From assembly GCF_009765975.1 (NCBI RefSeq), contig NZ_LMUJ01000064.1:4659-68658 (forward strand): a stretch of DNA of 64,000 nt, given 5' to 3'. Source of the DNA: Acidisphaera sp. S103. GTDB lineage: Bacteria > Pseudomonadota > Alphaproteobacteria > Acetobacterales > Acetobacteraceae. This document shows positions 3,610 to 36,216 of this stretch, piece after piece (within the stretch, counting starts at the first letter, position 1; each line of letters opens with the position of its first letter). A model generated the notes under the pieces. That model did no database searches, had not been told where the DNA came from, and saw nothing but the letters and a program-made list of their open reading frames with translations. The translations under genes and the position numbers were made by a program.

Positions 3610-3740
3610 GACGTGTTCCCGGCGGATTCTAAGGAGTAAGCAGCGGGTTCTAATGCTCTGCCGCCGCGGGGGCAACCGGATGACGCGGCCGAGCGCGGCG
3701 GGGCTGGTCTGTGCGGGGGGCGGGCCAGGACCTTCGGTGA

Positions 3741-4055
3741 ATGAATCGTGATCGCCCGGCCGCGCCGCCGGAACCAGGCCAGGGACGCGATCCGCGTTGC
3801 CTCGGCGTCGCCCCGACGCGAATCACTTTGCGCCAGGGAAGCCGGTTCCGGACGATCGAGGTCCCTGACCTTCAGCTTATCGACGGTTTCCATGCCTTCG
3901 AGGCCGAGACCGGCGTCCGCTGGACTGACGGCGATGCCACCGTGACGGCGGAATTGCGCGAAGGATTCGACGGCCCGGTGGAGCTGGTGCTGCACCTCGA
4001 CGGGTCGACCCGATACCCCGTCTTTGCCGTTGCCGGCCAACGTACCGCGGCATGA
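3741..4055 (+). pseudogene. 3' remnant of a third Hint-tailed beta-helix gene
   Basis: The 104-codon frame matches only the last ~95 residues of the 986-residue protein encoded at 4489. Shared landmarks are DPRCLG, TLRQG/MLRQG, DGFHAFEA, RWTDGDA, EGFDG, VELVLHL and TRYP, and both end in a similar alanine-rich tail. No Hint domain or repeat region precedes it. Sequence just after the stop (around ACGTAACC) also resembles the DNA after the 986-residue gene. I infer a lost third member of a tandem array whose 5' part was deleted. It could still be expressed as a small protein, but there is no clear ribosome binding site. Confidence 0.75.
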
Positions 4056-4488
4056 ACCTGGCGGCCCGCGCCCGGCGCGTTGCCACGCAACCATTACGTA
4101 ACCAGGCGGCTGCTACGCAATGGGTAACCGCTGCGCAATCGAATTGATTTGCATCAAACAAAGCCTGCCCGAATCGAGTTGCCTTCGAGATATTTTTGCC
4201 ACATGACCTCAGATGCCGAACATCCGGTGGAACGCAGGGACGAATGATCGGCGGGGCCGCGACGGCTTCGGACCGGGTCGCTCCGAACGGCTTCACCCGC
4301 ACACTTCGACCACCGCCCGTGGAAACAGGGCGCCTGCCACGTCCCGTCACCCGGCGGGCATGCGACCGGAGCAAGATGACTTCGCCTGTGCGCAGCCATC
4401 CAGCTTTAACTTTTTTGTTTGATCACGTGATTCAGACCTGCGGCGATTCCGCCTCCGGTCATCACGCTCTCGCCTGAAGGATCGACCG
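4056..4488 (+). other. Long leader region of the first beta-helix gene
   Basis: This 433-bp region has no convincing gene. It contains two GTAACC words, a perfect Crp/Fnr-type dyad at 4144-4157, and an AT-rich stretch including TATTTT at 4191-4196 that may serve as a -10 region. It ends with AAGGA upstream of the start at 4489. Parts resemble the leader before the second large gene (7450-7733), so gene plus leader look like the duplicated unit. Confidence 0.6.
4144..4157 (+). promoter_or_regulatory. FNR/FixK-type operator TTGAT-N4-ATCAA
   Basis: TTGATTTGCATCAA is an exact match to the FNR/FixK/Anr consensus TTGATNNNNATCAA. It lies 331 bp before the start of the 986-residue gene and about 40 bp before an AT-rich possible -10 element. 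A similar dyad occupies the corresponding leader of the second copy. Oxygen- or nitrogen-oxide-responsive control is inferred. Confidence 0.6.
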
Positions 4489-7449: not shown

Positions 7450-7490
7450 GCCAGGCGCCCCAACCCTCCGCAACCTGCTACGTAACCGGA

Positions 7491-7504
7491 TTGACTCACG
7501 TCAA
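7491..7504 (+). promoter_or_regulatory. Crp/Fnr-family dyad TTGAC-N4-GTCAA
   Basis: TTGACTCACGTCAA is a perfect 5-4-5 inverted repeat close to the FNR/FixK/NnrR class. It lies 229 bp before the start of the 2474-residue gene and about 33 bp before TATTTT at 7531. It matches in place the perfect FNR box upstream of the first paralogue. Confidence 0.5.
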
Positions 7505-7733
7505 ATAAATAACTCTTCCGAATCAGTTTGTATTTTCAAACGTTCTTCGTCACATTTGGCAATGTGCTGAGCGTCGGATGAGACATACAGGCGAATTACC
7601 GCCGGAGCCATGACGGCTCCGAACCGGATCGTTGCGCGCCATCTTGCTGGCACACCTTGACCACGCTCCCTGGAAACGGGGCACCCACGGTGCGCCGCCA
7701 TCCCGGTACGCAACAAGCCTGAAGGACCGACTG

Positions 7734-10700
7734 ATGAGCAAGACGATCGCGACCACCTACAGTTCGGGCGTCACGCTTTCGTCGGCCTCGTATGATCCCA
7801 CGACCATCACGTCCACGGGCCTGCTGCAACAGGGCCTGAATGTTCAGTACAGTGGCAACTGGCAGGTCCTGAACCAGGGGACGATCCAGGCGCCGTCGTC
7901 CTACGGCATCTACCTGCTTGGGGGCGGCACGGTCACCAACCAGACGAGCGCCACGATCGGCGGCAGCCAGGGCGGGATCGCCACCGAACACGCCGCCCTG
8001 ACCGTCATCAACGCCGGCAGCATCTATGCGTCCAACGGCGCCGGCATTTCCCTGTTCGCCGGCGGCAGCGTCACCAACCAGGCCGGCGGCACCATCACCG
8101 GCTACACCGGCATCCATGGCGGAGCAGCCGCGGCCGCCGCCGTCGTCAATGCCGGCGTCATCGCCACCTACATCCCCTTCGCCACCTCAGTATTTTCCAA
8201 CGCCGGTGTCTCCCTGCTCGACGGCGGCAGCGTCACCAACCAGGCCGGCGGCGTGATCCTCGGCTACCAGGGGATCTACGGCGGCCACGACGGTGCCCTG
8301 ACCGTGGTCAACGCCGGCACCATCGCCGCGGCCTACTTTCCCATAGAAGAGACCTACTACGGCAACGGCGTGTATCTGGGCCACGGCGGTACCGTCATCA
8401 ACCAGACCGGTGGGACCATCACCGGTGCCATCGGGATCGCCAGCAGCGGAGTCCCCGCGACGGTCGTGAACTACGGCGACATCACCGGAGTCATGAGCAC
8501 CGGCATCGACATGGGCGACGGCGGCAGCCTCACCAACCAGGTCAGCGGAGCCATCACCGGCGCTTTCGGCGTCGACTCCGTCGCCTACCTGGCCGTGGTG
8601 AACGCCGGGACCATCACCGGTACCGCCGCCGGCGGTATCAGTTTCTTAAACGGCGGCGGCGGCAGCGTCACCAACGAAGCCGGCGGCATCATCACCGGCA
8701 ACAACGGCATCGTCGGAACCGGCGCCACGACCGTGTTCAACGCCGGCAGCATCGGCAGCAACGGCTCGGGCGACGGCATCTACCTGGAGAACGGTGGCAG
8801 CGTCACCAACCAGGCCGGCGGCATCATCAGCGGCTATACCGGGGTCTACAGCGGGTCAGCCGCCGCCGTCGCCGTGGTCAACGCAGGCGTCATCGCCACC
8901 TATATCCCCTTCGCCATCTCAGTATTTTCCAACGCCGGCGTCTCCCTGCTCGACGGCGGCAGCGTCACCAACCAGGCCGGCGGCGTGATCGTCGGATACC
9001 AGGGAGTCTACGGCGGCCACCACGGCGCCCTGACCGTGATCAACGCAGGCACCATCGCCGCGGCCTACTTTCCCATAGAAGAGACCTACTACGGCGAAGG
9101 CGTGTACTTGGGCGATGGCGGCACCATCATCAACCTGGCCGGCGGCACCATCACCGGCAGCAATGGGATCGCCACCAGCGGAGTCTCCGCGACGGTCGTG
9201 AACTACGGCGACATCACCGGGATCATGAGCACCGGCATCGACATGGGCGCCGGCGGCAGCCTCACCAACCAGGCCAGCGGGGTCATCACCGGCTATTTCG
9301 GCGTCGACTCCGCTGCCTACCTGAACGTGGTGAACGCCGGGACCATCACCGGTACCTCCGGCGGCGGAATCAGTTTCCTCGCCGGTGGCGGCGGCAGCGT
9401 CACCAACGAAGCCGGCGGCATCATCACCGGCAACAACGGCATCGTCGGAACCGGCGCCACGACCGTGATCAACGCCGGCAGCATCGGCAGCAACGGCTCG
9501 GGCGACGGCATCTACCTCGAGAACGGTGGCAGCGTCACCAATCAGACGGGCGGAACGATCACCGGCTCCGACGCGATCGACGCCGAGGCGCAAAGCACCC
9601 TGATCAACGCCGGTTACATCGCTTCGACCGGCGCCAGCCAGACCGCTGTCGATCTGCAAGCCGGCGGCTACGTCCTCAACCAGACCAGCGGCGCGATCAC
9701 CGGCTATTCCGGCATCCAGGCCGATAACGCCCCGGCAACGGTCGTCAATTACGGCAGCATCACCGCCATCGGTTCGGGCGGCGACGGCGTCGCATTCTAT
9801 GCCGGCGGCACCGTCACCAACGCGGCGAGCGGCACCATCAGCGGCAGCGACGGCGTCTACGCCACCGCCCCGGTCGCCGTGGTCAATGCCGGCGACATCA
9901 CCGGATCCGTCCATTACGGCATCCAACTCACCGCCGGCGGCGTCATCACCAATCAGGCCGGCGGCTATATCGCCGGCTACGCCGGAATCTTTGCCGGCTC
10001 CGATCCAGCCACTATGGTCAATGCCGGCAGCATCGCCGGGATCGGGACCTACGGAAAAGGCATCGAACTCCAGGCTGGCGGCACCATCACCAACCAATAT
10101 GGCGGCACGGTTTCCGGCTTCACCGCGATCTACACCGGCGGCCCCGTCACCGTGGTGAACTACGGCGTCGTCGCCTCGACCGGCATGGATCGAGGCGGTG
10201 TCCAGGCGGTCGATGGCGGCGACGTCACCAATCAGGCCGGCGGCACCATCACCGGCTATAACGGGGTTTACGGCACCGCGCCGCTCTACGTGCTGAATGC
10301 CGGTGTCATATCCGCCGCCACGGCGTCCCCGCTGTACACCGGCGTCGACCTGGCCGCGGGCGGCACCGTCGTCAACCAGGCCGGCGGCACCATCACCGGC
10401 GGCAGCGGAGTTGACGGCGGCTACGGCGGCCCGCTGTATGTAAACAACAGCGGCAGCATCGTCGGGGTCTCCGGCGGTGGCATAGAAATTCTGGCCGGTG
10501 GCACCGTCGTCAACCAGGCCAGCGGTGTGATCGCCGGCTACGTGGGCATCGAGGCCGGCACGGTCGCCGTGACCGTGGTGAATTACGGCGTCGTCGAGGC
10601 CAGCTATTCCGTGGGCGTTTTCCTCGCCGGCGGCGGTGCCGTCACCAACGCAATCGGCGGCACCATCAGCGGAGCCGCCGGCGTCATCTCCCTCTACGGG

Positions 10701-13700
10701 GCCACGACCGTCGTCAACGACGGCACGATCGCCGGTTCCGAGGAAGGTGTCGCCCTGAATGCAGGCGGCGTCGTCACCAACCAGACCAACGGCATCATCA
10801 CCGGCTACGCCACCGCGATCGACGGCGAGGGCCCGGTCACCGTGGTGAATGCCGGGACCATCTACGCGAGCCAGACCTACTCTCGCGCAACGGGCATCTA
10901 CCTCGGTGGCGGCGGCACCATCACCAACCAGGCCGGCGGCACCATCACCGGTGCCAACGCGATCTACAGCGCACAATCCCACACGCTCACAGCGACCATC
11001 GTGAATGCCGGCACGATCGCGGGGAACTATTACGCCATCAATCTCGCCATGACCGGCGTCGTCACCAACCAGGCCGGCGGCATCATCGAGGGCTCCCGAG
11101 CGATCGGATCGCAACGTACCCTCACGGTGGTCAATGCCGGCACGATCGCCGGCTACGACGGCGCCATCGGCCTGCTGTCGGGCGGCACCGTCGTCAATCA
11201 GGCCACCGGCACCATCAGCGGGGCTGTCGGAGTCTACGGCGGCGGCCGCACCACCGTGGTCAACGCCGGCAGCATCCTGGGCGGTGCGGAAGGTGCGTTG
11301 CAGGGCGGCATCGCCCTGCTCGACGGCGGCATCGTCACCAACCAGACCGGTGGCTATATCACCGGCTATGATGGCGTCTACGGCGGTGAAAAACACACCG
11401 TAACGGTCATCAACGCCGGCAGCATCACCGGCGGTACAGCCGACCACTACGCGGGCGGCGTCGAACTCGTTGGCGGCGGCGCCGTCAGCAACGCGGCGAC
11501 CGGCACGATCACCGGCTACGACGGGGTCTACGGCGGCAAACCCGGCAGCCTGCTGGTCATCAATGCCGGCACCATCAGCGGTGTTGGCGGGACAAGCTAC
11601 GGCGTCGTCCTCAACGGCGGCGGTTACGTCACCAACCAGGCCGGCGGCGTCATCACCGGCTTCGACGGCATCATCTCCAACTACGCCGCCGCGACCGTCG
11701 TCAACGCCGGCACCGTCACGGCGGTCGGTTCGAAAGGCACCGGCGTCGTCATCGAAGACGGCGGCGCCGTCACCAATCAGGCCGGCGGCACCATCACCGG
11801 CAGCAACGGCGTTTACGGCAAATCCGTCCCGCTCACGGTGATCAACGCCGGCTCCATCTCGGGCTACAACCTGTACGGCGTCGCCCTGTTCGCCGGCGGG
11901 TCGCTCGACAACCAGGCCGGCGGCACCATCACCGGCCCGGCCGACGCGGTCTATGCCAACGGGCCGCTGACCGCGGTGAACGCCGGTCTCATCACCAGCT
12001 ACGGCGGTGGTGACGGCATCGAACTGAACGCCGGCGGCAGCGTCACCAATCAGAGCGGCGGCGTCATCGACGGGTACGACGCGATTTTCGCCATCACGGC
12101 CGCGGTGACGGTGGTCAATGCGGGCACCATCGATGCCAGCACCACCCCGCTGAACAGCGCGGCGGGCATCGGCGTTTACCTCGGCGCCGGCGGCGCCGTC
12201 ATCAACCAGGGCGGCGGCACGATCGCCGGAACCTACGGGGTTTATGCCAAGAACGTCGCGGCGACCGTGATCAACAGCGGCAGCATCGCCGGATACAGCC
12301 AGACCGGCGTCGTCTTCGCCGCCGGCGGCTATCTGACCAACCAGAGCGGCGGCACGATCACCGGCGCCACCGGCGTTTTCAACGGCGGCGCCCTGACCCT
12401 GGTGAACAGCGGTGCCATATTCGGCACCATCGGCGAAGCCCTCGACGTCTACGCAGGCGGCACAATCACCAACCTGAGCGGCGGCACGATCAGCAGCGAC
12501 GGCTCCGAGGTGATCTTCAGCGCCAACACCGCCGTCGCCATCACCAATGACGGCACCATTGCGACGTCCGGCATTGGTGATGAGGCGATCGCCCTCTTCG
12601 CGGGTGGCACCATCACCAACCTGGCCAGCGGCACGATCAGCGCCGGCGTCGAGGCCATCGTCAGCTTCGACACCGCCATCGCCGTAACCAATTACGGCCT
12701 CATCGCCGGCGGCCAGATTGGCGGCCAGGGCATCGCCCTGTTCGGGGGCGGCAGCATCACCAACCTGAGCGGGGGGACGATCACCGGCGGCCTCCAGGGT
12801 ATTGCCAGCTTCAGCGATCCCATGACCGTGTCGAATGCCGGTCTCATCACGTCCTACGACTATCGCGGCCAGGCGCTTTATTTCACCGGCGGCGGCAGCG
12901 TCACCAACCAAGCCGGCGGCACCGTCAGCGGTTATGGCGCCATCGTTGCTCTCGACACGGCGGTCGCCGTGGCGAATGCCGGCCGCATCGCGTCCTACGG
13001 CACCAATGCCAGGGCAATCTACTTCACCGCCGGCGGCAGCATCACCAACCAGGCCGGCGGCACCATCAGCGCTGCCTACGACGCGATCGTCGCCTTCAAT
13101 TCGGCTGTTCCCGTCGTGAACGCCGGCCTGATCGCGGCTTATGGGGCGAATGGCAAAGCCATCGACCTGGTCGAGGGCGGCAGCGTCACCAACCAGGCCG
13201 GCGGTACCATCAGCGGATTTTACGGCGTTTACGCCAAATACGGCTCGATCACAGTGGTCAACGCCGGCAGCATCGTGGCCAATACCGCGTCGGGGACCGC
13301 CATCAAACTGCTCAACGGCGGCAACGTCACCAACGTTTCGGGTGGCACAATCAGCGGCCATACCGGAATCCAGGCTAACGACAGCGGCATGACCGTGACG
13401 AACGCCGGCGTCATCATCGGCACCGGCGGCAACGCCGTGACGTTCGCCGCCGGCTACACCAACCGGCTGATCGTCGATCCCGGCGCCGCCTTTACCGGCA
13501 CGGTCAATGGCGGCAACGCCGTCGGCGCCGCCAAAGCCAGCACGCTCGAGCTGGCGTCCGCCGCCTCGGCCGGAACGCTGTCCGGCCTGGGCACGCAGTT
13601 CGTCGATTTCAGCCAGGTGGCGCTGGACGCCGGCGCCTACTGGGACCTGACCGGCACCAACACGCTGGCCGCCGACGCCACCCTGACCAATGACGGCACC

Positions 13701-26949: not shown

Positions 26950-28707
26950 TCAGCCAAACGTAAACGAGTAGGCCGTCGCGCCGGGATCGAGGAAGCGGAT
27001 CTCGAACGTGTGGTCGCCGATGCCGCCGGCGAGACGAACCAACTGATATAGCCGTTGCGCGTTGATGACACCGTTGCCGTCGGCGTCGGTGTCGACACCA
27101 TGGTTGTCGCCCGGCGCATGGCCATCGACCAGGACCTGGAACTTTACCGGCTTGCCATCCGGAGCAGGCCCGAGGACCAGGTGCAGGTCCCGCGCGTGAA
27201 AGCGATAGGTGATCCCGCCGTCGGGTTGCGTGAGGACGGCGTCCTGGCCGCCAACGCGCCAATCGCCGGTCAGCGCCCACCGATTGAGCGCCAGCGTCGC
27301 GGGCGCCGTGTAGGGGTGGACCTGGCCCTGGTCCGCACCGCCAGGGGAGGCGAAGTTCTCGGCGCGATCGGTGCCGATATACGTCTCCGGGGATTCGACA
27401 TCGGTCATGTCCGCGGCGGCCTCGACACCTTTGCCGGCGACCGAGACGGTGCCTGAGGCGATGTCCTTGTGCCCGGCCTCACGCAGAAGCTGCTGGATCA
27501 CGTGTTCTGACTCGGCATAATCGCCTTCGCCGAAATGATGGGAACGAATGCGGCCATCGGCGTCTATGAAGTAATGCGCCGGCCAATACTCGTTGTTGAA
27601 TCCGCGCCAGATCGCATAGTTGTTGTCGATCGCTACGGGATAATCGATGCCAAGGCGTTTCACGGCGGCTCGGACGTTGTCGATGTTCCGCTCGAAGGCG
27701 AATTCGGGTGCGTGAACGCCGATGACGATCAGGCCCTCGTCATGGTACTTCTTGGCCCATGCCTCGACGTAGGGCAGCGTGCGCAGGCAGTTGATGCAGG
27801 AATAGGTCCAGAAATCGACCAGGACGACATGGCCGCGGAGCGATTCCGCGGTCAGCGGCGGGCTGTTCAGCCAATCGACCGCGCCGGCGAGAGACGGAAG
27901 TTGGCCTTCGACCGGCAGCGACGCGGCGGGCGGTTGTGCCGCGGCCATCATCATGGTCGGGCCGGCTTTCATGACCGGGGTATTCGGGGTTGCATGAAGG
28001 CGATCGACCAGCGCCTGCTCCACCCCGTTCGTGCTCGCCAGCGAGACTTGCGCGAGCAATCCGGTGTCGAGGCCGGTGGCGATCGCGACAACGCCGGCGA
28101 GGACGGCAATGCCGAGCCCGCGGCGTATCCACTCGCCTGCGCCGAGCGATCGTTTCATGGCGGTGAAGACTTTGCCGCCGATGAGCAGGGCAACGGCCAG
28201 GGACGTCGCGGCGCCGGCGGCATAGGCGAGAAGCAGGAACGTCGTGCCGAGGCTGGCGCCGTTCAGGGCCGCGCCCGTCAGCAGCAGCCCGAGGATCGGA
28301 CCGGCGCACGGCGCCCATAGCAGGCCCGTGGCTACACCCAGGACCAGCGAGGAGCCGAAGGTCGCCCCTTCATTCCCGGCGGTTTGTGACAGGCGGGCGC
28401 CCAATGCCACGATGGGGCGCGTCATCCTCTCGGAGAGCCGCGGCAGCAGCAGGGTGATACCGAACAGCGCCATGAGAACGATGGCGGCGAGGCGGCCGTA
28501 GTAGTTGGCCTCGACGACCCATCCGCCACCGACGGCGGCGAGGGAGGCGACCGCGGCGAAGGTGATCGCCATGCCGGCCAGGATTGGCAGGCCGCTTCGC
28601 CTGAAGGGCTGATCGGACCGCGCGAACACGAACGGCAGCACGGGCAGGATGCAGGGGCTCAGGATGGTGAGCACCCCGCCCAGATAGGCGGCGAGGATGA
28701 GAAACAT
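26950..28707 (-). CDS. dipZ: DipZ-type transmembrane thiol-disulfide transporter with thioredoxin domain
   Basis: This 585-residue protein begins with a CcdA/DsbD-like membrane domain (about 1-240) bearing a cysteine in LSPCILPVLPF (C19). A periplasmic redoxin domain follows with the CxxC pair C304/C307 (YSCINCLRT) and HAPEFAFERN. A C-terminal beta-rich DipZ domain (about 430-585) closes it. Such proteins pass electrons from cytosolic thioredoxin across the membrane to periplasmic thiol partners. It is the last gene of msrB-msrA-dipZ; the start lies 9 bases after the msrA stop with a GAGGGGG ribosome site. I infer that it recycles the exported methionine sulfoxide reductases. Confidence 0.92.
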   Translation of the reverse strand: MFLILAAYLGGVLTILSPCILPVLPFVFARSDQPFRRSGLPILAGMAITFAAVASLAAVGGGWVVEANYYGRLAAIVLMALFGITLLLPRLSERMTRPIVALGARLSQTAGNEGATFGSSLVLGVATGLLWAPCAGPILGLLLTGAALNGASLGTTFLLLAYAAGAATSLAVALLIGGKVFTAMKRSLGAGEWIRRGLGIAVLAGVVAIATGLDTGLLAQVSLASTNGVEQALVDRLHATPNTPVMKAGPTMMMAAAQPPAASLPVEGQLPSLAGAVDWLNSPPLTAESLRGHVVLVDFWTYSCINCLRTLPYVEAWAKKYHDEGLIVIGVHAPEFAFERNIDNVRAAVKRLGIDYPVAIDNNYAIWRGFNNEYWPAHYFIDADGRIRSHHFGEGDYAESEHVIQQLLREAGHKDIASGTVSVAGKGVEAAADMTDVESPETYIGTDRAENFASPGGADQGQVHPYTAPATLALNRWALTGDWRVGGQDAVLTQPDGGITYRFHARDLHLVLGPAPDGKPVKFQVLVDGHAPGDNHGVDTDADGNGVINAQRLYQLVRLAGGIGDHTFEIRFLDPGATAYSFTFG

Positions 28708-28716
28708 GATACCCCC

Positions 28717-29457
28717 TCAGGAGTTCCGTTTGGCTACCAGAACGGGATCGGGCCGGTAGTCCGCGGGGAAGACCTTTTGCAACGCCCCGATCTTCGGCAG
28801 ATCGAATTCCGCGATATATGGGCTGTCGGGGTGCAGGGTCAGGTAGTTCTGGTGATAGGCCTCGGCCGGGTAGAAGCCGGTATCCTGCCCGACCTGCGTC
28901 GCGATCGCCTTCGGGAACATTTTGGCCTGGTCGAGTTGGGCGATATACGCCTTGGCGATCCGGGCCTGTTCGGGAGTTGCCGTGAAAATCTCCGACCGGT
29001 ACTGCGTCCCCCGGTCCGGATACTGCTGGTTGAGTTGTGTCGGGTCTGTGGTGACCGAGAAGAATATCTGCAGCAGACGGCCATAGGAGATGACGTGGGG
29101 ATCGTAGGTGATCCGCACCGATTCAGCGTGCCCCGTGGTGCCGCTGCTGACGACCTCGTATTCCGCCGTGGCGGCGGTGCCGCCGTCATAGCCGGATACG
29201 GCGTTGACGACGCCACGGACGTGCTGGAACACGCCCTGGACACCCCAGAAGCATCCGCCGGCGAGGGTCAGCGTTTCGGTGCCGGACCCGGATGGGGTCT
29301 CATCCACCAGCGGGGCGGGCAATTTCTGGTTGAGATCGGCGCCTTGGGCGGCGGTGCCGCCGGAGGGACCCAGCAGGTAGACGCCGAGCAGAGCGGCCGC
29401 CGGAATGGCCGACATGCGTAACAGAGTCCGGAAATTCCACATTTTAGGTCGCTCCAT
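28717..29457 (-). CDS. msrA: Exported peptide-methionine (S)-S-oxide reductase MsrA
   Basis: MsrA reduces the S epimer of methionine sulfoxide in proteins. The catalytic GCFW motif is at 68-71 (C69), followed by the family stretches VSGYDGG, GHAESVRITYDP and YRSEIF. Before it lies an N-terminal hydrophobic segment (about 13-30) with basic residues, a signal peptide or anchor, so the enzyme works outside the cytoplasm. The listed start is 4 bases after the msrB stop; the ATG at 29442 with GGAG nearby is an equally good alternative. The gene is between msrB and dipZ. Confidence 0.93.
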   Translation of the reverse strand: MERPKMWNFRTLLRMSAIPAAALLGVYLLGPSGGTAAQGADLNQKLPAPLVDETPSGSGTETLTLAGGCFWGVQGVFQHVRGVVNAVSGYDGGTAATAEYEVVSSGTTGHAESVRITYDPHVISYGRLLQIFFSVTTDPTQLNQQYPDRGTQYRSEIFTATPEQARIAKAYIAQLDQAKMFPKAIATQVGQDTGFYPAEAYHQNYLTLHPDSPYIAEFDLPKIGALQKVFPADYRPDPVLVAKRNS

Positions 29458-29461
29458 TTTT

Positions 29462-29953
29462 TCAGGCTGGCTTGAAGGTCATCGCGACGCCGTTCATGCA
29501 ATAGCGAAGACCAGTGGGCGCCGGGCCATCGCGGAACACGTGACCAAGATGTCCACCGCAACGGACGCAGTGGATTTCGGTGCGGGCCATACCGAAGCTG
29601 GTGTCATTGGTTTCCGCGACCGCATTCGCCAGCGGCTGCCAGAAGCTGGGCCAGCCGGTGTGGCTGTCGTATTTCGTTGCCGATGAAAAGACCGGCAGGT
29701 CGCATCCGGCGCAGTCGTACGTGCCGCCGCGCGTTTCGAAGTCAAGTTTGCTGGAGAACGGGCGTTCCGTACCTTCGTGCCGGAGTACGTCGTAAGCTGC
29801 CGGGCTGAGGAGGGACCGCCACTCGGCGTCGGTGTGCATCACGGGAAAGACGGCGGACTGTGCCGCGGTCGCGGCCCGATGCCGAGGCAACAGGAAATAG
29901 AGCCCGGCACCCGCCAAGGCTGTCATCCCGAGCAATTCGCGTCGTTTGGTCAT
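29462..29953 (-). CDS. msrB: Exported peptide-methionine (R)-S-oxide reductase MsrB
   Basis: This 163-residue enzyme reduces the R epimer of protein methionine sulfoxide. The zinc cysteines C81/C84 and C129/C132 and the catalytic C152 in RYCMN are present, with HTGWPSF between. The N-terminus MTKRRELLGMTALAGAG has twin arginines and a hydrophobic stretch, so export (possibly by Tat) is likely. I choose 29953 because GGAGG precedes it at good spacing; the longer frame overlaps the upstream gene. It is first in an operon with msrA and dipZ and is preceded by a perfect GTAACC-N16-CGAA promoter. Confidence 0.94.
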   Translation of the reverse strand: MTKRRELLGMTALAGAGLYFLLPRHRAATAAQSAVFPVMHTDAEWRSLLSPAAYDVLRHEGTERPFSSKLDFETRGGTYDCAGCDLPVFSSATKYDSHTGWPSFWQPLANAVAETNDTSFGMARTEIHCVRCGGHLGHVFRDGPAPTGLRYCMNGVAMTFKPA

Positions 29954-29986: not shown

Positions 29987-30012
29987 TTCGGAAGACAGGG
30001 CGATTAGGTTAC
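29987..30012 (-). promoter_or_regulatory. SigF-type ECF promoter of msrB-msrA-dipZ (GTAACC-N16-CGAA)
   Basis: On the minus strand GTAACC, 16 bases and CGAA occur exactly, ending 33 bp before the msrB start. The same motif, with the same spacing, stands before the DUF1223 gene and before the sigma factor gene in this window. As I recall, it equals the motif described for Caulobacter SigF. It overlaps the last codons of the upstream glycosylase gene. Confidence 0.8.
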
Positions 30013-30725
30013 ACCGTTCGCGATTTCCGATGCGGCGCCGGACCTGGTTGCGAGTCAACGGTCATGGCAAGGATGCGGCTGATGGCTGTCAAATCCCGGC
30101 CCGATTCCTCGGACCAGCGGTTGAACGCGGCTTGCACGGTCGAAAGGTCCCGCTTGCCGGTCGGCGGGTGGTCGATGACGCCCTCGCGAACCAGCGCTGC
30201 CACCATATCGGGTGTTGCGATGAAGGCCGGCTTGCCGATTGCCCGAAGAAACCGGCCGGCGGCATCCCCGCCGAGGTGACTGGCGCGCTTCTTCAGGACA
30301 TCCAAGAGACCCACATAGTCCGCATCCGGCCAGTTCGCGAAGAATTGGGCGGCACTGCCGTGGCTTGTTTTCAGCGTCAGCAGGAATTGGGCGTTGATCT
30401 GAACCGACTTGACCTTTGCCCCGTTGCGTACGATTCCCCGGTCCTGCATCAACCGGTCGAAATGCTCTTCCGACATGAATGCACAGGCCTTGGGGTCGAA
30501 TCCGTTGAAGCCTTTCTCGAAGGCTGGCCACTTGTCGTCGATCACCTTTGCCGAAAATCCAGCGTAGAAGATGCGCCGTGTCATTTCGGCCAGAATTCGA
30601 TCGTCGGGTGTCGATGCGATCTCAGCCGGCGACCGTGGCGCGGTCGCCGCGAGGATCCGCTCGAGTGCCGGTACGCCCCCTTTCCGCTCCGCGGCCAGCG
30701 CAAGGATCTCAGCGAAAGGCGTCAT
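30009..30725 (-). CDS. DNA-3-methyladenine glycosylase I family protein
   Basis: The 238-residue protein matches the Tag-type (PF03352) helix-hairpin-helix fold: ILAEMTRRIFYAGFSAKVIDDKW, here IFYAGFSAKVID and WPAFEKGF, and IVRNGAKVKSVQINA. Tag enzymes excise 3-methyladenine from DNA in base excision repair. E. coli Tag is about 187 residues; this one is longer, with an extended C-terminus, as in many alphaproteobacterial homologues. The stop overlaps the msrB promoter. It does not carry a sigma box of its own that I can see. Confidence 0.85.
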   Translation of the reverse strand: MTPFAEILALAAERKGGVPALERILAATAPRSPAEIASTPDDRILAEMTRRIFYAGFSAKVIDDKWPAFEKGFNGFDPKACAFMSEEHFDRLMQDRGIVRNGAKVKSVQINAQFLLTLKTSHGSAAQFFANWPDADYVGLLDVLKKRASHLGGDAAGRFLRAIGKPAFIATPDMVAALVREGVIDHPPTGKRDLSTVQAAFNRWSEESGRDLTAISRILAMTVDSQPGPAPHRKSRTV

Positions 30726-30824
30726 GACGCTGCCCCTTCAAAACGGAATGGCGATCGTTTCGTGACTGATCATACCGTATCCCGTTTTAGTACGGCCGCA
30801 CCACGATGCCAAGCGCCGGCCGCG

Positions 30825-31643
30825 TCAGGTCCGCGCGCCCAGATAAGCCTCGGCGACGGCGTCGACGAGCGCGAGCGACGCCGTCGCGCCGTTGGCCTCG
30901 CCTTTCTCGAAATCGCCGGATTGGCCCATCTGGTTGGTGACGTGCGCGAAGCAGAGTACCGGCTTGCGGCGCGCCTCGGCGAACGCGTAAAGGGCGGCGG
31001 CCTCCATTTCGACGGCCAGGATGCCCTCGGCCCGAGCGGCGGCGATTGCTTGTTGTGTCTCGCGGTAGGGGGCGTCGGTCGTCCAGGTGGCACCGCGCTC
31101 CACTGGATCGGTGATTTTTTCCAGCGCGCCTTGCACAATCGACAGCAGGACCGGATCGGCCTCGGCGTAGTCCGACCCGGCGGACAGATAGTGATAGCTG
31201 GTGCCCTCGTCGCGCAGTGCCCGCTCGATCAGGATGAAGTAGGGCGGCGGACCCAGCGTGGTGACCTGGCCTGACGAGGTGATGCTGATAAGCAGGCGGC
31301 AACCGGAGGCGAACAATTGCTCCGCCACCAGCACGGCGTATGGCGCGCCGACGGCGCAGCCGACGATCCCGTATTCGCGGCCGCCGTGATCGAAGCGGTC
31401 CATCGCGCTGTGGTAGCAGGCCCAGCCTGGGACAGGCCGCGTTCGGTCCGCGGCGCGCAGGTAGCGCACGATGTCGCCGTCCGGATCGAGGATGCAGATC
31501 GCGGGAACCGGTGTGTCGGGCACGTCCTTCTGGCGGCGGGCCTCGCGCAACAGGCTCTCCGGCGTGAAGGCCGAGGGTGCTCGGTAGCGCTTGGCGCGCA
31601 GGATCGGCGGCATAACGCAGAGGCTTCGATCATCCATGTGCAT
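30825..31643 (-). CDS. Nucleoside phosphorylase family protein
   Basis: This 272-residue protein belongs to the phosphorylase superfamily (PNP/UDP). It shows GIVGCAVGAPYAVLVAEQL, here VGCAVGAPYA, the SITSSGQ motif and the VEMEAAALYAFA signature that binds the nucleoside ribose. Family enzymes cleave nucleosides with phosphate into base and ribose-1-phosphate. The frame stays open upstream but similarity begins near MHMDDRSL, so I start at 31643, with 31637 as alternative. It lies between tag and the DUF1223 gene without overlap; base salvage is the likely role. Confidence 0.88.
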   Translation of the reverse strand: MHMDDRSLCVMPPILRAKRYRAPSAFTPESLLREARRQKDVPDTPVPAICILDPDGDIVRYLRAADRTRPVPGWACYHSAMDRFDHGGREYGIVGCAVGAPYAVLVAEQLFASGCRLLISITSSGQVTTLGPPPYFILIERALRDEGTSYHYLSAGSDYAEADPVLLSIVQGALEKITDPVERGATWTTDAPYRETQQAIAAARAEGILAVEMEAAALYAFAEARRKPVLCFAHVTNQMGQSGDFEKGEANGATASLALVDAVAEAYLGART

Positions 31644-31693
31644 GGTCAGGTGGTCCCGGAGAGAAACTGTCGAGGAATGAGCGACGGCGCCGA

Positions 31694-32401
31694 TCACGAT
31701 GAACCGGAGGGCGCACGGGCAACCGCGGCGCCCACGATGTGTCCGTCGTCGCGCTGCAGGAGGACGGCGACATCCTGTCCGGCGGGGGAAGGCACCTGCA
31801 GGTGAACCGGCGTGCCAGACCACGCGCCGAGGGTGGACATCGAACGGACGATATTGGCTTCCTCCAGCGTGCGTCCGCCGTTTTCGCCGCGGCCGACGGC
31901 GGTCCGGTGCAAGCGATCGTAGCCGATCAGGAGCAACGTCCCGTTGCCGGTGCCGGCGCCGACCGAAACGGTCAGACCCTCTGGCCCGCGCTGGATGTCG
32001 ATCCGTGCGGCGGTTTCCTGGTTTGCCGCCGCCTGTCGCAGGGTGAGGTCAACCGCCGCCGGATCAGACCCCACCGCGTCGCGTTTGCCATCCACGATCA
32101 GCGCCGGGGTGTAGACCTCGGGGGACACACCGCGTGCGACATAGTGGCGCTGCCGCTGTGTCGCGGCGTCGAATGAGTAGGGATCGTGCCAACCGAGGTT
32201 GTTCCAGTAAGTCACGTGGAAGGTCAGCAGCAGCAGGTCGGGCCGTGTCCGCGCCAGTTCGGCGACCAGAGCGTCCGCGGGCGGACAGGATGAGCAGCCT
32301 TCCGAGGTGAACAGTTCGCCCACGACCGGCCGAGCGGCGGGTTGAGCGGCCGCGAGGGTCGGCATCAGGACCGCGATCGCGGCGGCCAGCCAAAAACGCA
32401 T
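31694..32401 (-). CDS. Secreted DUF1223 thioredoxin-like protein
   Basis: The 235-residue product has a clear signal peptide (MRFWLAAAIAVLMPTLAAAQ) and the DUF1223 motifs VVGELFTSEGCSSCPPAD and TFHVTYWNNLGWHDP. The CSSC pair sits where thioredoxin-fold proteins have CxxC, so a periplasmic redox role is likely though not shown. It begins 54 bp downstream of an exact GTAACC-N16-CGAA element and is divergent from the sigma factor operon that carries the same element. This supports membership in an envelope redox-stress regulon. Confidence 0.88.
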   Translation of the reverse strand: MRFWLAAAIAVLMPTLAAAQPAARPVVGELFTSEGCSSCPPADALVAELARTRPDLLLLTFHVTYWNNLGWHDPYSFDAATQRQRHYVARGVSPEVYTPALIVDGKRDAVGSDPAAVDLTLRQAAANQETAARIDIQRGPEGLTVSVGAGTGNGTLLLIGYDRLHRTAVGRGENGGRTLEEANIVRSMSTLGAWSGTPVHLQVPSPAGQDVAVLLQRDDGHIVGAAVARAPSGSS

Positions 32402-32454
32402 GTTACGCTCCCGAATAGAGGATATGGCGGACCTGCCTGCCTCTGCTGTTTCCA

Positions 32455-32480
32455 TTCGGGTGGAAGGGGGCGTCGGTTAC
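32455..32480 (-). promoter_or_regulatory. SigF-type ECF promoter of the DUF1223 gene (GTAACC-N16-CGAA)
   Basis: Minus-strand GTAACC and CGAA are separated by exactly 16 bases, 54 bp before the DUF1223 start. Sequence and spacing are identical to the boxes at 29987 and 32833. Confidence 0.8.
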
Positions 32481-32832
32481 ACCCATCGGCATAACGACAC
32501 CCCGTCGCACGTTACGGGAATAAAATCGAATTACCGGCGGCCCGTCGGTAACCCGCTCTCGGGAAGTGGCCGTGGATCTATGTGGGCATCATCTGCGCGC
32601 ATGTTATGTTCGCGGTGTCGCAGACGGGCGGCGATCGACGCGAGGCGGGCCGTTCCCAGGGTCATATCCGGTTGCGGGCCTCGCTATTTTTATCCATGGA
32701 TTCTAAGGTGCCGGATCGCCTTTGGACCCTCCTCGATCGCAGGGCGCGGGCGGGATCCGAATCGCCGTCACATACAGGGACAGAAACGTGAGGGTCTGCC
32801 GTTGTTTTTTTGGCGCGGTACCATCCACGCCT
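32481..32832. other. Divergent intergenic region, no gene seen
   Basis: Between the two sigma-type boxes lie about 350 bp with no recognisable gene. A further GTAACC at 32549 lacks CGAA at the right distance (CCGT follows 16 bases on). Short open frames here give no family similarity. Confidence 0.5.
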
Positions 32833-32858
32833 GTAACCGAACCCCGATTGCCGCCGAA
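32833..32858 (+). promoter_or_regulatory. SigF-type ECF promoter of the sigma operon (GTAACC-N16-CGAA)
   Basis: GTAACC at 32833-32838 and CGAA at 32855-32858 are 16 bases apart, 42 bp before the sigma start. This is a plausible autoregulatory promoter, as is usual for ECF sigma operons. Confidence 0.8.
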
Positions 32859-32900
32859 CATGGTGTTCGAAGCCAACGGGATGAGCATGTGTCGAGCACA

Positions 32901-33485
32901 ATGGCCGCTTTCGAACCGGGTCCGGCCGCCATGGCCCCGATCGTGAGCGGCGATGCGCCCGGCGAGAACTGGGACAGGATGATGGCCGCCGCGCAGGTGG
33001 GAGATGCCAATGCGTACAGGACGTTACTCGCCCAACTGGCGCCGTGGTTGCGCCGGTACTACGCAAGGCGCCTGCCGCCTGCCATGACGGAAGATGCGGT
33101 CCAGGACGTCCTGCTGGCGATCCACGAGAAGCGTCACACCTATGATCCCGCTCGGCCCTTCGGGCCCTGGCTGGCCGCGATCGCGCGGTACAAATGGATC
33201 GACCGGCTGCGTTCGCTGAAGGCGGAAGCGGCCGAACCCCTGGACGAGACGATCGGGGTGCCGGATCACGGCGATACCGTCATCGCCGGCTCGACGTTCC
33301 GGCAACTGCTGGCCGGACTGAAGGCGCCGCAGGCCGAAGCCATCCGGCTGGTCAAGCTGGAGGGCTACAGCGTCGAGGAGGCGTCTCGGGCGACGGGTCA
33401 GTCGGTCTCCCTCATCAAGGTGAACATTCACCGCGGCATCAAGCATCTCACCAATATGATCAAGGCGGCCGGCGATGCGGACTGA
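32901..33485 (+). CDS. ECF RNA polymerase sigma factor (SigF/NrsF-linked type)
   Basis: The 194-residue protein has ECF region 2 (AYRTLLAQLAPWLRRYYARR, here LLAQLAPWLRRYY; then EDAVQDVLLAIHEKRHTYDP and WLAAIARYKWIDRLR) and region 4 (APQAEAIRLVKLEGYSVEEA and GQSVSLIKVNIHRGIK). It directs RNA polymerase to stress promoters. I start at 32901 where family similarity and a good length coincide; the frame is open much further upstream. The downstream gene, overlapping by 11 bases, is an NrsF-type membrane anti-sigma factor, which identifies the subgroup. An exact copy of the proposed target motif precedes it. Confidence 0.92.
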   Translation: MAAFEPGPAAMAPIVSGDAPGENWDRMMAAAQVGDANAYRTLLAQLAPWLRRYYARRLPPAMTEDAVQDVLLAIHEKRHTYDPARPFGPWLAAIARYKWIDRLRSLKAEAAEPLDETIGVPDHGDTVIAGSTFRQLLAGLKAPQAEAIRLVKLEGYSVEEASRATGQSVSLIKVNIHRGIKHLTNMIKAAGDAD

Positions 33486-34116
33486 CTCCCTGGTCGACCG
33501 TCTCAGCCAGGATCTTCGCCCGGTGCGACGGCGGAACATCGTGCGGGAGGCGTTGCTTCTGCTGGTGCTGGGTGTCGTCGAGGTCGCGGCGTTCCTGGGC
33601 ATGGGGTTCATGCGCCCGGACATGCCGATGGCGATGGATGCGCCGTCCTTCTGGTGGAAGCTCGCCAGCCTGGGGCTGATCGCGGTGCTTGGGGCGGGCG
33701 TGGCGATCTTGTCTGCCGATCCCGTCCGATCGCCCCGCCGTGGGCTGCGGTGGATGCTGATCTGCATCGTCATGATCATTGCCAGCGGGTGGCTGATCGA
33801 CGCCTCCGGGAACGGACTGGGGGACCTGGTTCGCCGTCTCGATTGGGTGCACGGCCTGCAGTGCGTCTGGAAGATGATCGCTCTGTCGATCCCGCCGGCC
33901 ATCGCGCTGGGCGTGCTGATACGACGCGGTGCGCCGACCGACCGCGGCGGGACCGCGCTGGCCGCCGGCCTGGCGTCGGCCGCCTGGGGCGCGTTCGTGT
34001 TCGTCTTCGCCTGTCCGTCGGATGATCCGCTCTACATCGCGGTCTGGTACACCGTTGGATGCTCGATCGTGACGATCCTGGGGCGGGCCATCCTGATGCG
34101 GCTGTCACGATGGTGA
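33475..34116 (+). CDS. NrsF/DUF1109 membrane anti-sigma factor
   Basis: This 213-residue protein has six hydrophobic segments and the length typical of DUF1109 (NrsF). The N-terminal stretch MRTDSLVDRLSQDLRPV is the usual cytoplasmic sigma-binding part. In Caulobacter NrsF holds SigF inactive and responds to metals through periplasmic-side cysteines. Here cysteines are visible in LICIVMI, LQCVWKM, FACPSDD and VGCSIV. It is translationally coupled to the sigma gene. Confidence 0.9.
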   Translation: MRTDSLVDRLSQDLRPVRRRNIVREALLLLVLGVVEVAAFLGMGFMRPDMPMAMDAPSFWWKLASLGLIAVLGAGVAILSADPVRSPRRGLRWMLICIVMIIASGWLIDASGNGLGDLVRRLDWVHGLQCVWKMIALSIPPAIALGVLIRRGAPTDRGGTALAAGLASAAWGAFVFVFACPSDDPLYIAVWYTVGCSIVTILGRAILMRLSRW

Positions 34117-34183
34117 CGATACAGCCGTGATGCCGTCGTTTCCCAGGCGCTTACGCGTCACCGGTCATGTCGAGATCGAATTC

Positions 34184-34885
34184 ATGAGCCAAGTCAAAGA
34201 CGAGACCCCGGATATGCCTGCCGCGCCGCCACAAGCCGGACGCCGTCTGCATCCGTTGCCCATCAGGGTCATGCACTGGATCAACGCCATCGTCATGCTG
34301 GTCATGATCACGTCCGGCTGGGGCATCTACGACGACGACGTGATTATCCGCGGCCTCCATTTCAGCCCGTTCTGGCGGCTGGGCGACTGGGCGGCCTGGA
34401 GCCTCAACTGGCATTTCGCCGGCATGTGGTTCCTGGGCATCAACGGATTGATCTATCTGATCTACGGCTTCGCGAGTGGACGATTGCGGGAGAAGCTGCT
34501 GCCGATCCGGCCGTCCGACGTGGTGCGGACCGTCATCGATACGTTGCATTTCAAGATCGCGCACGAGGACATCACCGTCTACAACGCGGTGCAGAAGCTG
34601 CTGTACATCGTCGTCATCCTGGCCGGCATCAGCCAGGTCGTCACCGGCCTCGCCATCTGGAAGCCGGTCCAGTTCTCCGGTCTCGTCTGGCTGTTCGGCG
34701 GTTTCCAGACGGCGCGGGTGCTGCACTTCGCGGGGATGGCGGTGATCGTCGGTTTCCTGGTCGTGCATGTCGCTCTCGCGCTGCTGGTTCCGAGGACCTT
34801 GTGGGCGATGGTGACGGGCGGCCCGCATCTGGCCGTGCGCAGCCGAATTCGGAAAGGCCATGCGCAGCGGGGTCATGCGACATGA
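34184..34885 (+). CDS. Cytochrome b561-type membrane subunit partnering the molybdoenzyme
   Basis: The 233-residue protein (start alternatives at 34130 and 34184) has four main membrane helices with candidate haem ligands H31 (RVMHWINA), H77 (NWHFAG), H181 (VLHFAG) and H195 (VVHVAL). This is the prokaryotic cytochrome b561/NapC-independent b-type family (PF01292). It should pass quinol electrons to, or from, the molybdopterin protein encoded next, whose start overlaps by ATGA. It plays the place that MsrQ has in the MsrPQ system but belongs to a different membrane family. Confidence 0.9.
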   Translation: MSQVKDETPDMPAAPPQAGRRLHPLPIRVMHWINAIVMLVMITSGWGIYDDDVIIRGLHFSPFWRLGDWAAWSLNWHFAGMWFLGINGLIYLIYGFASGRLREKLLPIRPSDVVRTVIDTLHFKIAHEDITVYNAVQKLLYIVVILAGISQVVTGLAIWKPVQFSGLVWLFGGFQTARVLHFAGMAVIVGFLVVHVALALLVPRTLWAMVTGGPHLAVRSRIRKGHAQRGHAT

Positions 34886-35655
34886 GATCGCCGTTCCGGC
34901 CGGACGCCGTTCCGGATGCCGCCGTCCTCGACGATCATAAGCCGCTGGTCCGAACGCTGGAACGGCGTGGGCTGATCCGCGGCGGGCTGTCGCTGGGTGC
35001 GCTCGTCATGCTGACGGGATGCGACGTGAAGCGTCCCGAGGCGGTTGAATCCGCGCTGCTCGCGTTGTCTCGCCTCACGGACGACGTGCAGGCGCTGCTG
35101 TTCAATCCGAACAGGCTGGCGCCGACCTATCCGGCCTCGATGATCCTGCGACCGCCCAAGTTCAACGCCTATTACGACGTGATGGATGTGAAGCCGGTGG
35201 ACGGCGCGACGTGGCGTCTCGACCTGTCCGGCCTGATCGCCGACAAGCATCCGTGGACGCTGTCGCAATTGCAGGCGCTGCCGCGGAGCTCGATGGTCAT
35301 CAAGCACATCTGTGTCGAGGGCTGGAGCTATATCGGCGGCTGGACCGGCGTGCCGCTGCGGGTCTTCCTGGAGCGTGTGGGCGCGGATTTGCGCGCCAAA
35401 TACGTCGCCTTCAAGACGGCCGACGACTATCCGAGCAGCATCGACATGGCGACGGCGCTGCATCCGCAGACATTGCTGGCGACCCAATATGGCGGCGATC
35501 CGCTTGCCGATCCGTTCGGGTATCCGGTGCGCCTGCGCATGGCGACCAAGCTTGGCTACAAGAACCCCAAATGGATCACGGCGATCGAGGTCACCAACAC
35601 CTATCCTGGTGGATATTGGGAAACGAAGGGCTTTTCGTGGTTCGCGGGCCTGTGA
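34882..35655 (+). CDS. Exported molybdopterin-dependent oxidoreductase, YedY/sulfite-oxidase fold
   Basis: The 257-residue product carries the sulfite-oxidase/YedY domain with the molybdenum-ligand cysteine at C144 (IKHICVEGWSYIGGW). The N-terminus has RR at 28-29, a hydrophobic stretch and MLTGC at 43-47, suggesting Tat export and perhaps a lipid anchor. YedY (MsrP) repairs methionine sulfoxide in periplasmic proteins; other members oxidise sulfite. The sigma operon context and the msrB-msrA-dipZ operon nearby favour a repair role (inference). I start at 34882 because ATGA overlaps the cytochrome gene. Confidence 0.92.
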   Translation: MRSPFRPDAVPDAAVLDDHKPLVRTLERRGLIRGGLSLGALVMLTGCDVKRPEAVESALLALSRLTDDVQALLFNPNRLAPTYPASMILRPPKFNAYYDVMDVKPVDGATWRLDLSGLIADKHPWTLSQLQALPRSSMVIKHICVEGWSYIGGWTGVPLRVFLERVGADLRAKYVAFKTADDYPSSIDMATALHPQTLLATQYGGDPLADPFGYPVRLRMATKLGYKNPKWITAIEVTNTYPGGYWETKGFSWFAGL

Positions 35656-35660
35656 GACGC

Positions 35661-36125
35661 ATGGCACCGAGCCGCATCCTGCTTGCGTGGTGCCTTCTGG
35701 CTGCGAGCGCGGACGCAGTGCATGCGCAGAGCACGACGCCGGGGGGCATGCCGCCGCCGCCGGGCATGAGCCTGCCGGCTTCCGCCGCCATGCGATTTCC
35801 GCAACCAGTCCGCGTCGGCGATCTTCTCGGACGGGAGGTTTTGCGTCCCGTCGAGAGCCAGGACGTTCTGGGGCGCGTTCGCCGCCTGGTTCGCGACGGT
35901 GATGGCCGGATCATGGTCGTGGTGGACTTCGGCGGGTTCCTGGGCCTGGGAGCCCGGCCGATCGCCGTTCCCGTGGACGCCATGGTGCTGCTTGGCCAGG
36001 ACATGGAGATCGTTGCCTTTACGCCGAAGCAACTCCGGCAATTTCCCACATTCTTGCCCGCCGGCACCACCGACGTTGGGGACGACACGATTATCAGGGT
36101 CGGCCTCGCCAAACCCTCGCACTGA
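35661..36125 (+). CDS. Secreted PRC-barrel domain protein
   Basis: This 154-residue protein has a signal peptide (MAPSRILLAWCLLAASADAVHA) and a PRC-barrel core (VRVGDLLGREVLRPVESQDVLGRV, here LLGREVL and LGRVRRLVRDGDGRI, then VVVDFGGFLGLG). PRC barrels are small beta-barrels that often bind protein partners or ligands; the role here is unknown. A GTG start at 35652 overlapping the preceding TGA is an alternative and would add two arginines to the signal peptide. It is the last gene of the sigma operon. Confidence 0.82.
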   Translation: MAPSRILLAWCLLAASADAVHAQSTTPGGMPPPPGMSLPASAAMRFPQPVRVGDLLGREVLRPVESQDVLGRVRRLVRDGDGRIMVVVDFGGFLGLGARPIAVPVDAMVLLGQDMEIVAFTPKQLRQFPTFLPAGTTDVGDDTIIRVGLAKPSH

Positions 36126-36190: not shown

Positions 36191-36216
36191 GTAACCTTAT
36201 CGGGCGTCCCGCAGAA
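36191..36216 (+). promoter_or_regulatory. Near-match to the sigma box upstream of the glycosyltransferase operon
   Basis: GTAACC at 36191-36196 is followed after exactly 16 bases by AGAA instead of CGAA. It lies about 100 bp before the DUF2064 gene start. One mismatch in the -10 part leaves the assignment uncertain. Confidence 0.35.

Follow-up and report, generated by a model that had tools for sequence, protein, structure and literature searches.

The stretch of DNA discussed here, called the window, comprises 64,000 nucleotides of Acidisphaera sp. S103 (contig NZ_LMUJ01000064.1, positions 4,659 to 68,658 of the forward strand). It carries a gene for an extracytoplasmic function (ECF) sigma factor, adjoined by a gene for an NrsF-type membrane anti-sigma factor and by genes for methionine sulfoxide reductases (MsrA and MsrB), thiol proteins, and a molybdoenzyme with a cytochrome partner. 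The locus is very probably an autoregulated ECF16 sigma/anti-sigma switch with three promoters, which would be released by oxidants and have periplasmic repair as its output. Pfam scans took in the regulon region of the window, and the features are as follows.

26950..28707, minus strand: DipZ, with a DsbD-type membrane domain and a thioredoxin-like domain with CxxC (by eye); Thioredoxin_10 3.1e-49
28717..29457, minus strand: msrA, product presumed exported (signal-like N-terminus, by eye); PMSR 1.7e-54, TIGR00401 157.9 (cut-off 108.1)
29462..29953, minus strand: msrB, product presumed exported (signal-like N-terminus, by eye); SelR 4.7e-48, TIGR00357 166.7 (cut-off 113.05)
29987..30012, minus strand: ECF16-type promoter of msrB-msrA-dipZ (-35 TGTAACC, N16, -10 CGAA), exact match
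31694..32401, minus strand: DUF1223 protein with CxxC, presumed exported; Pfam 3.1e-54
32455..32480, minus strand: ECF16-type promoter of the DUF1223 gene, exact match
32833..32858, plus strand: ECF16-type, autoregulatory promoter of the sigma-nrsF operon, exact match
32901..33485, plus strand: ECF sigma factor with regions 2 and 4 only (Sigma70_r2, Sigma70_r4_2); alternative start GTG 32889
33475..34116, plus strand: NrsF/DUF1109 membrane anti-sigma factor with Cys130 and Cys180; PF06532 5.6e-41
34184..34885, plus strand: cytochrome b561-family membrane protein, presumed part of the sigF operon by read-through; PF01292 7e-23
34882..35655, plus strand: YedY/sulfite-oxidase-family molybdoenzyme with a Tat-like ERR motif (by eye); PF00174 (Oxidored_molyb) 5.7e-30
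35661..36125, plus strand: PRC-barrel-like protein, last in the presumed operon; PF05239 20.6 bits, under the cut-off of 21.2

There are exactly three exact matches to GTAACC-N16-CGAA in the window, against a mean of 0.03 in 100 dinucleotide shuffles, which never gave three. A preliminary description of this DNA had reported three such boxes with the same spacing and in the right orientation, 30-60 bp from the start, and this is what the exact matches at the three sites bear out, with measured distances of 30-53 bp. A T precedes all three boxes, so that the common element is TGTAACC-N16-CGAA. The first box overlaps the final 4 bp of the preceding Adenine_glyco-family gene and lies 33 bp upstream of the MsrB ATG. 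In the DUF1223 gene the first ATG of the reading frame (32455) falls within the -10 element and is therefore not the start codon; the ATG at 32401 lies 53 bp from the box. The distance from the sigma box to the start is 30 bp (GTG 32889) or 42 bp (ATG 32901). The motif had been ascribed to Caulobacter SigF, and the literature agrees, as it is the Caulobacter SigF-NrsF system that defines GTAACC-N16-CGAA (PMC3511200).

The same box recurs in relatives. We assembled 78 NrsF-type loci (1.26 Mb), namely a slice of the window, 21 loci from relatives, 54 from across the class and two annotated ones on plasmids; all 60 matches over the cut-off (57 genomes) were taken, four below it were set aside, and L047, L049 and L051 were dropped because they duplicate L029, L031 and L034. 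The exact N16 box occurs 64 times in these loci, several of which come from one genome or genus and are therefore not independent, whereas 200 permuted motifs average 2.19 occurrences, with 14 as the highest. The spacing peaks sharply at N16 (64), with 8 sites for N15, 10 for N17 and 0-5 for the seven other spacings in the 12-21 range. Of the loci with a sigma match, which number at most 77, 22 (the window among them) have a box with zero or one mismatch ahead of the sigma gene; a box of this kind turns up on one strand in 2.0% of random 290-bp stretches.

Downstream of the 64 boxes there are 80 candidate open reading frames (ORFs; these rather than sites were counted, and 25 of 27 families are shown), which include ECF (17), PMSR (5), DUF2282 (5), DUF1223 (3), SelR (3), Oxidored_molyb (3) and cytochrome b561 (3), as well as thioredoxin-type families. 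Among the 25 of 45 families shown for the permuted control (61 ORFs), none of these appears and unrelated ones are found instead. Methionine-rich exported peptides (by eye) lie downstream of boxes in L042, L052, L101, L120 and L151, and the one in L101 is annotated as an MXKDX repeat protein. Similar small membrane protein genes with an exact box, a further candidate target, are found in L048 (4245-4898) and L050 (4230-4886).

The pairing of an ECF sigma factor with NrsF, as first described, is confirmed by the PF06532 gene that adjoins the sigma gene. NrsF scores 141 bits against PF06532 (cut-off 26.8) but falls short of the narrower NCBIfam NrsF equivalog (64 bits, cut-off 300), and it is encoded by the only NrsF gene in this genome. 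In an alignment of 29 sequences, window included, Cys130 is present in 29 and Cys180 in 26; by numbering, their counterparts are C131/C181 in Caulobacter NrsF and C129/C179 in OsrA. We assign the sigma factor to the ECF16 type by its regions 2 and 4, the adjacent DUF1109/NrsF gene, the two cysteines and the (T/C)GTAAC-N17-CGAA promoter that precedes its own gene and the targets, i.e. by features other than the ECF classification's own models. A sulfite-responsive RpoE1/RpoE4 type was considered and rejected, as those belong to ECF26 and have other promoters. In named genomes, six loci were found for this NrsF: in a Rhodopila metagenome-assembled genome (MAG), two Rhodospirillales MAGs, an unclassified Proteobacteria MAG, Acidisoma and Sphingobium. 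Rhodopila-like bacteria are placed in the Acetobacteraceae.

The first periplasmic loop of the window NrsF is rich in methionine (residues about 44-55, GFMRPDMPMAMD). Among 79 ORFs the mean number of loop methionines is 2.4 in the 20 that are linked to Msr or molybdoenzyme genes, 0.42 in the 26 linked to DUF2282 and 0.88 in the 33 others (Mann-Whitney p 1.5e-5 and 2.6e-4), a post hoc comparison in which L133, L149 and L039 are plainly misaligned at the loop. On a tree built without the loop columns (77 rows, 5 independent pairs), a threshold of at least three methionines gave on average 1.8 pairs in agreement and 0.3 in disagreement (median p 0.5, lowest 0.25); with at least two, the same kinship-aware test gave 2.1 and 1.3 (median p 1). 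As there are only five independent pairs and the result is not significant, relatedness may explain the pattern, and we do not retain the loop as a marker of Msr linkage. The idea of a methionine sensor was proposed earlier for OsrA (PMC3420878).

Among the boxed genes, DipZ has further matches to Redoxin (8.6e-11) and DsbD_TM (27.4 bits, cut-off 27.1). The DUF1223 protein is related to Atu2684, whose structure is solved (2axo, 2.7e-29), and the box upstream of DUF1223 is also exact in L031; L034 has an N15 variant there. A literature search, with subscription papers largely outside its reach, found no DUF1223 gene named as an ECF16 target, and the two papers seen to name DUF1223 appear to deal with other matters. 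The regulon gives DUF1223 a concrete regulatory context.

The cytochrome gene begins 67 bp after nrsF (13 bp if its upstream start is used). Terminator-like matches number 17 where 7.3 are expected, none of them between these two genes, and a sigma-70 promoter scan found no promoter. The short gap, the lack of a terminator-like match after nrsF and the lack of an own box make read-through from the sigF promoter likely, which would place the cytochrome, molybdoenzyme and PRC genes under the sigma factor. The PRC-barrel-like neighbour is kept in L031, L034 and L050, and Cys144 of the molybdoenzyme is invariant in an alignment of 10. In L031 (10485-10510) and L034 (8659-8684) an exact box falls within the cytochrome b gene, with 72 bp between it and the start of the molybdoenzyme gene. 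It is possibly an internal promoter, and it is not present in the window copy.

MsrA/B and the molybdoenzyme occur together in 6 of the 78 loci (L039, L048, L101, L133, L149 and the window). L133 and L149 have MsrA divergent from the cytochrome-molybdoenzyme operon, each with an exact box, and in L120 the cytochrome-molybdoenzyme pair adjoins a boxed Met-rich peptide gene; these arrangements, together with that of L101, are circumstantial evidence for a second repair route. In L101, a Kozakia baliensis plasmid, the genes of the MXKDX peptide, the molybdoenzyme and the cytochrome diverge from msrB-msrA-sigma-DUF1109, with an exact box at the peptide gene and a box with one mismatch at the cytochrome gene. 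We also observed that sigma and anti-sigma factor, MsrBA, cytochrome-molybdoenzyme and Met-rich peptide are all contained in positions 4342-8642 of this one plasmid, which is typed as non-mobilizable. L048 carries at 2828-4204 short molybdoenzyme, cytochrome and MsrB fragments beside MsrA and two boxes, and this looks like a decayed second copy near the intact one.

One further site in the window deserves mention.

36191..36216, plus strand: weak candidate for a fourth box, GTAACC-N16-AGAA (one mismatch), ahead of a DUF2064-GT87-radical SAM operon

Chance alone would give 2.35 such near-matches (zero or one mismatch) in the window. In five loci the DUF2064-GT87-radical SAM operon lies near the regulon; its box is exact in L050 (Acidisoma; 10763-10788), and in L029, L031 and L034 it has no box, the best candidates having 3-4 mismatches.

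From the computed promoter sites, gene content, conserved cysteines and recurrence across relatives we infer a signal, a release mechanism, export, read-through and a substrate as follows. At rest, membrane-bound NrsF would hold the sigma factor. A periplasmic oxidant or reactive chlorine would act on Cys130 and Cys180 and free the sigma factor; the Met-rich first loop perhaps also senses the oxidant. Transcription would then start at the three TGTAACC-N16-CGAA promoters and yield periplasmic MsrB and MsrA, re-reduced via DipZ, an exported DUF1223 thiol protein with a putative thioredoxin fold, and additional sigma factor and NrsF. By read-through the cytochrome b561/molybdoenzyme pair would be added, whose probable role is to reduce an oxidised substrate in the periplasm, for instance methionine sulfoxide.

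Several observations weigh against this reading. The inducers of known members differ (dichromate and cadmium, H2O2, HOCl, or none found). Regulon membership as first proposed is supported for the boxed msrB-msrA-dipZ, DUF1223 and sigma-nrsF units, whereas the cytochrome b, molybdoenzyme and PRC genes, none of which has its own box in the window, would join only via read-through. In a comparison of 30 MsrB loci (L053-L082) out of 77 matches from relatives, a GTAACC-N15..17-CGAA box lies close upstream in 4 of 11 loci in NrsF-bearing genomes and in 0 of 19 in genomes without NrsF; 7 of the 11 thus have no close box, and exported and other MsrB paralogues are mixed since the best match per genome was taken. 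This comparison is supportive of the regulon, though not clean. Finally, the scan of the whole genome (8.37 Mb, 116 contigs) for motifs upstream of starts, which had been proposed as a check, gave 7 exact sites versus 13 for the reversed control, and 25 versus 37 for the looser GTAAC-N17-CGAA. With totals below the control, mere presence of the motif tells little. By gene calls from a home-made codon score trained on the window genes, 18 of the 25 looser sites are inside coding sequence, two of them upstream of the next same-strand gene (L100 by 90 bp, L097 by 143 bp), and four are intergenic without a convincing downstream start: L001, L083 (651 bp from a gene), L087 (no gene) and L099 (1 bp from a contig-end ORF). 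The L001 box was rejected as a promoter of map because it points the opposite way. The three window sites are alone in lying 30-60 bp upstream of a gene on their own strand; the motif is distinguished by its position, and it is not enriched genome-wide.

The shortfall against the reversed control is also what would favour the view that the three boxes are due to chance or artefact and have no promoter function. We regard this as highly improbable and reject it, given the shuffles, the clustering and positions of the boxes, and their strong recurrence across genomes (64 in 78 loci). It is also improbable, though less so, that the boxes are recognised but a heavy metal is the primary signal as in Caulobacter SigF, with the Msr proteins a side branch. 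Promoter and anti-sigma family are indeed those of SigF-NrsF, which is induced by dichromate and cadmium, but the ten proteins scanned around the locus, which are only part of the window, include no member of the DUF692/DUF2063/DUF2282 operon, and the gene content matches EcfF and BcrS, which are induced by H2O2 and HOCl.

A more tangible alternative, which we hold to be possible but not probable, accepts the regulon and takes the cytochrome b561-molybdoenzyme pair for an enzyme that oxidises or reduces sulfite or other sulfur oxyanions rather than a methionine sulfoxide reductase. The molybdoenzyme reaches 73.1 bits with the MsrP model NF003767 and misses its cut-off of 207; its predicted structure is poor (mean confidence score, pLDDT, of 62), with fold matches at similar E-values to both sulfite dehydrogenase (2.4e-10) and YedY (9.0e-10), which the fold search does not separate. 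In Pfam the partner matches only PF01292, cytochrome b561, and it is not of the MsrQ type, MsrQ being a ferric-reductase type membrane protein. A full-scoring MsrP (407 bits) is encoded elsewhere in the genome, on contig C52, and a related molybdoenzyme on C85 is preceded by a cytochrome-like ORF (by eye); the stretches around these two genes have no box (best 2 mismatches), and C52 carries a looser site, GTAACG...CGAA (L090), some 5 kb upstream of the MsrP gene. Sulfite-regulating ECFs also exist, though they group with ECF26. Against a sulfite-type enzyme stands the fact that YedY (1xdq) is the best solved sequence match by eight orders of magnitude (1e-11 versus 1.2e-3 for the next), and that the pair adjoins a boxed Met-rich peptide gene on the Kozakia plasmid and in L120, an arrangement tied to methionine sulfoxide cycling in Brucella and in perchlorate islands. 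Since the MsrP cut-off is missed, the partner is of the b561 type and the structure is poor, it is the context that suggests methionine sulfoxide as the substrate.

The preliminary description also spoke of two independent routes of methionine sulfoxide repair, which is supported in part: MsrA and MsrB are over their family cut-offs, but the molybdoenzyme pair is not established as the second route. It is possible, though less likely than not, that this pair is a third, MsrQ-independent and quinone-fed envelope methionine sulfoxide reductase, co-expressed with MsrBA-DipZ and the DUF1223 thiol protein by the ECF16 of acetic-acid-type and other Alphaproteobacteria. If so, a single oxidant sensor would trigger two repair systems, one thiol-driven and the other quinol-driven. 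A literature search to which subscription papers were largely closed found no cytochrome b561-molybdoenzyme pair named as a methionine sulfoxide reductase, and the regulatory context gives this little-studied pair a testable substrate.

It is useful to compare the locus with known NrsF-type systems. Caulobacter crescentus SigF-NrsF shares with it the GTAACC-N16-CGAA promoter, the two NrsF cysteines (C131/C181) and a YedY gene in the regulon. Its main targets, however, are DUF692/DUF2063/DUF2282/DoxX genes, its msrA homologues are reported as unaffected, and it is induced by dichromate and cadmium and at most twofold by peroxides, paraquat and diamide (PMC3511200). Bradyrhizobium japonicum EcfF-OsrA, another ECF16 pair, controls three peptide methionine sulfoxide reductase genes, and its authors propose the DsbD-like conduit Bll1026-27 for the periplasmic reductase (PMC3420878). 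The ECF and DUF1109 genes, a similar promoter, the Msr genes, the DsbD-like route and two conserved cysteines are common to both systems. The EcfF motif, in contrast, is written GTAAC(g,a)-N14-15-(c,t)CG(t,a), the targets form seven transcription units, and the regulon as listed in the accessible text names no molybdoenzyme or DUF1223. Brucella melitensis BcrS-AbcS, also ECF16, responds to HOCl and has a Met-rich peptide and an MsrQP-like pair under its control (PMC8315932). It is of the same sigma/anti-sigma kind, autoregulated, with a TGTAAC-N17-CGAA promoter and a molybdoenzyme pair that acts on methionine sulfoxide; unlike in the window, this pair is homologous to MsrQP, there is a Met-rich peptide gene, and an MsrA/MsrB operon is not named as a direct target in the accessible text. 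The Kozakia baliensis plasmid pKB14400_3 (L101) has ECF and DUF1109 genes, boxed msrB-msrA and cytochrome b/b6 with a molybdoenzyme, as in the window, but it is a plasmid with a boxed MXKDX peptide gene and no DipZ or DUF1223 match in 16.6 kb. Perchlorate islands carry sigF/nrsF, yedYZ and mrpX, and two of them also exported msrA and msrB (PMC4623255), so both repair gene sets beside sigF/nrsF are already published; they differ in perchlorate respiration, in YedZ instead of cytochrome b561, and in the Met-rich peptide. S. meliloti RpoE7 is an ECF16 with no inducer found (PMC6180224), and genes for DUF1109 anti-sigma factors are likewise found in the vicinity of chlorite dismutase genes (PMC9751292); a term search of PMC6527743 gave nothing relevant. 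The novelties here are thus small, namely DUF1223 and the cytochrome b561 pair in an ECF16 context, the other pieces having precedent. The regulon extends ECF16 biology to Rhodopila-like bacteria in an expected way, and in its content it resembles those of EcfF and BcrS more than that of Caulobacter SigF.

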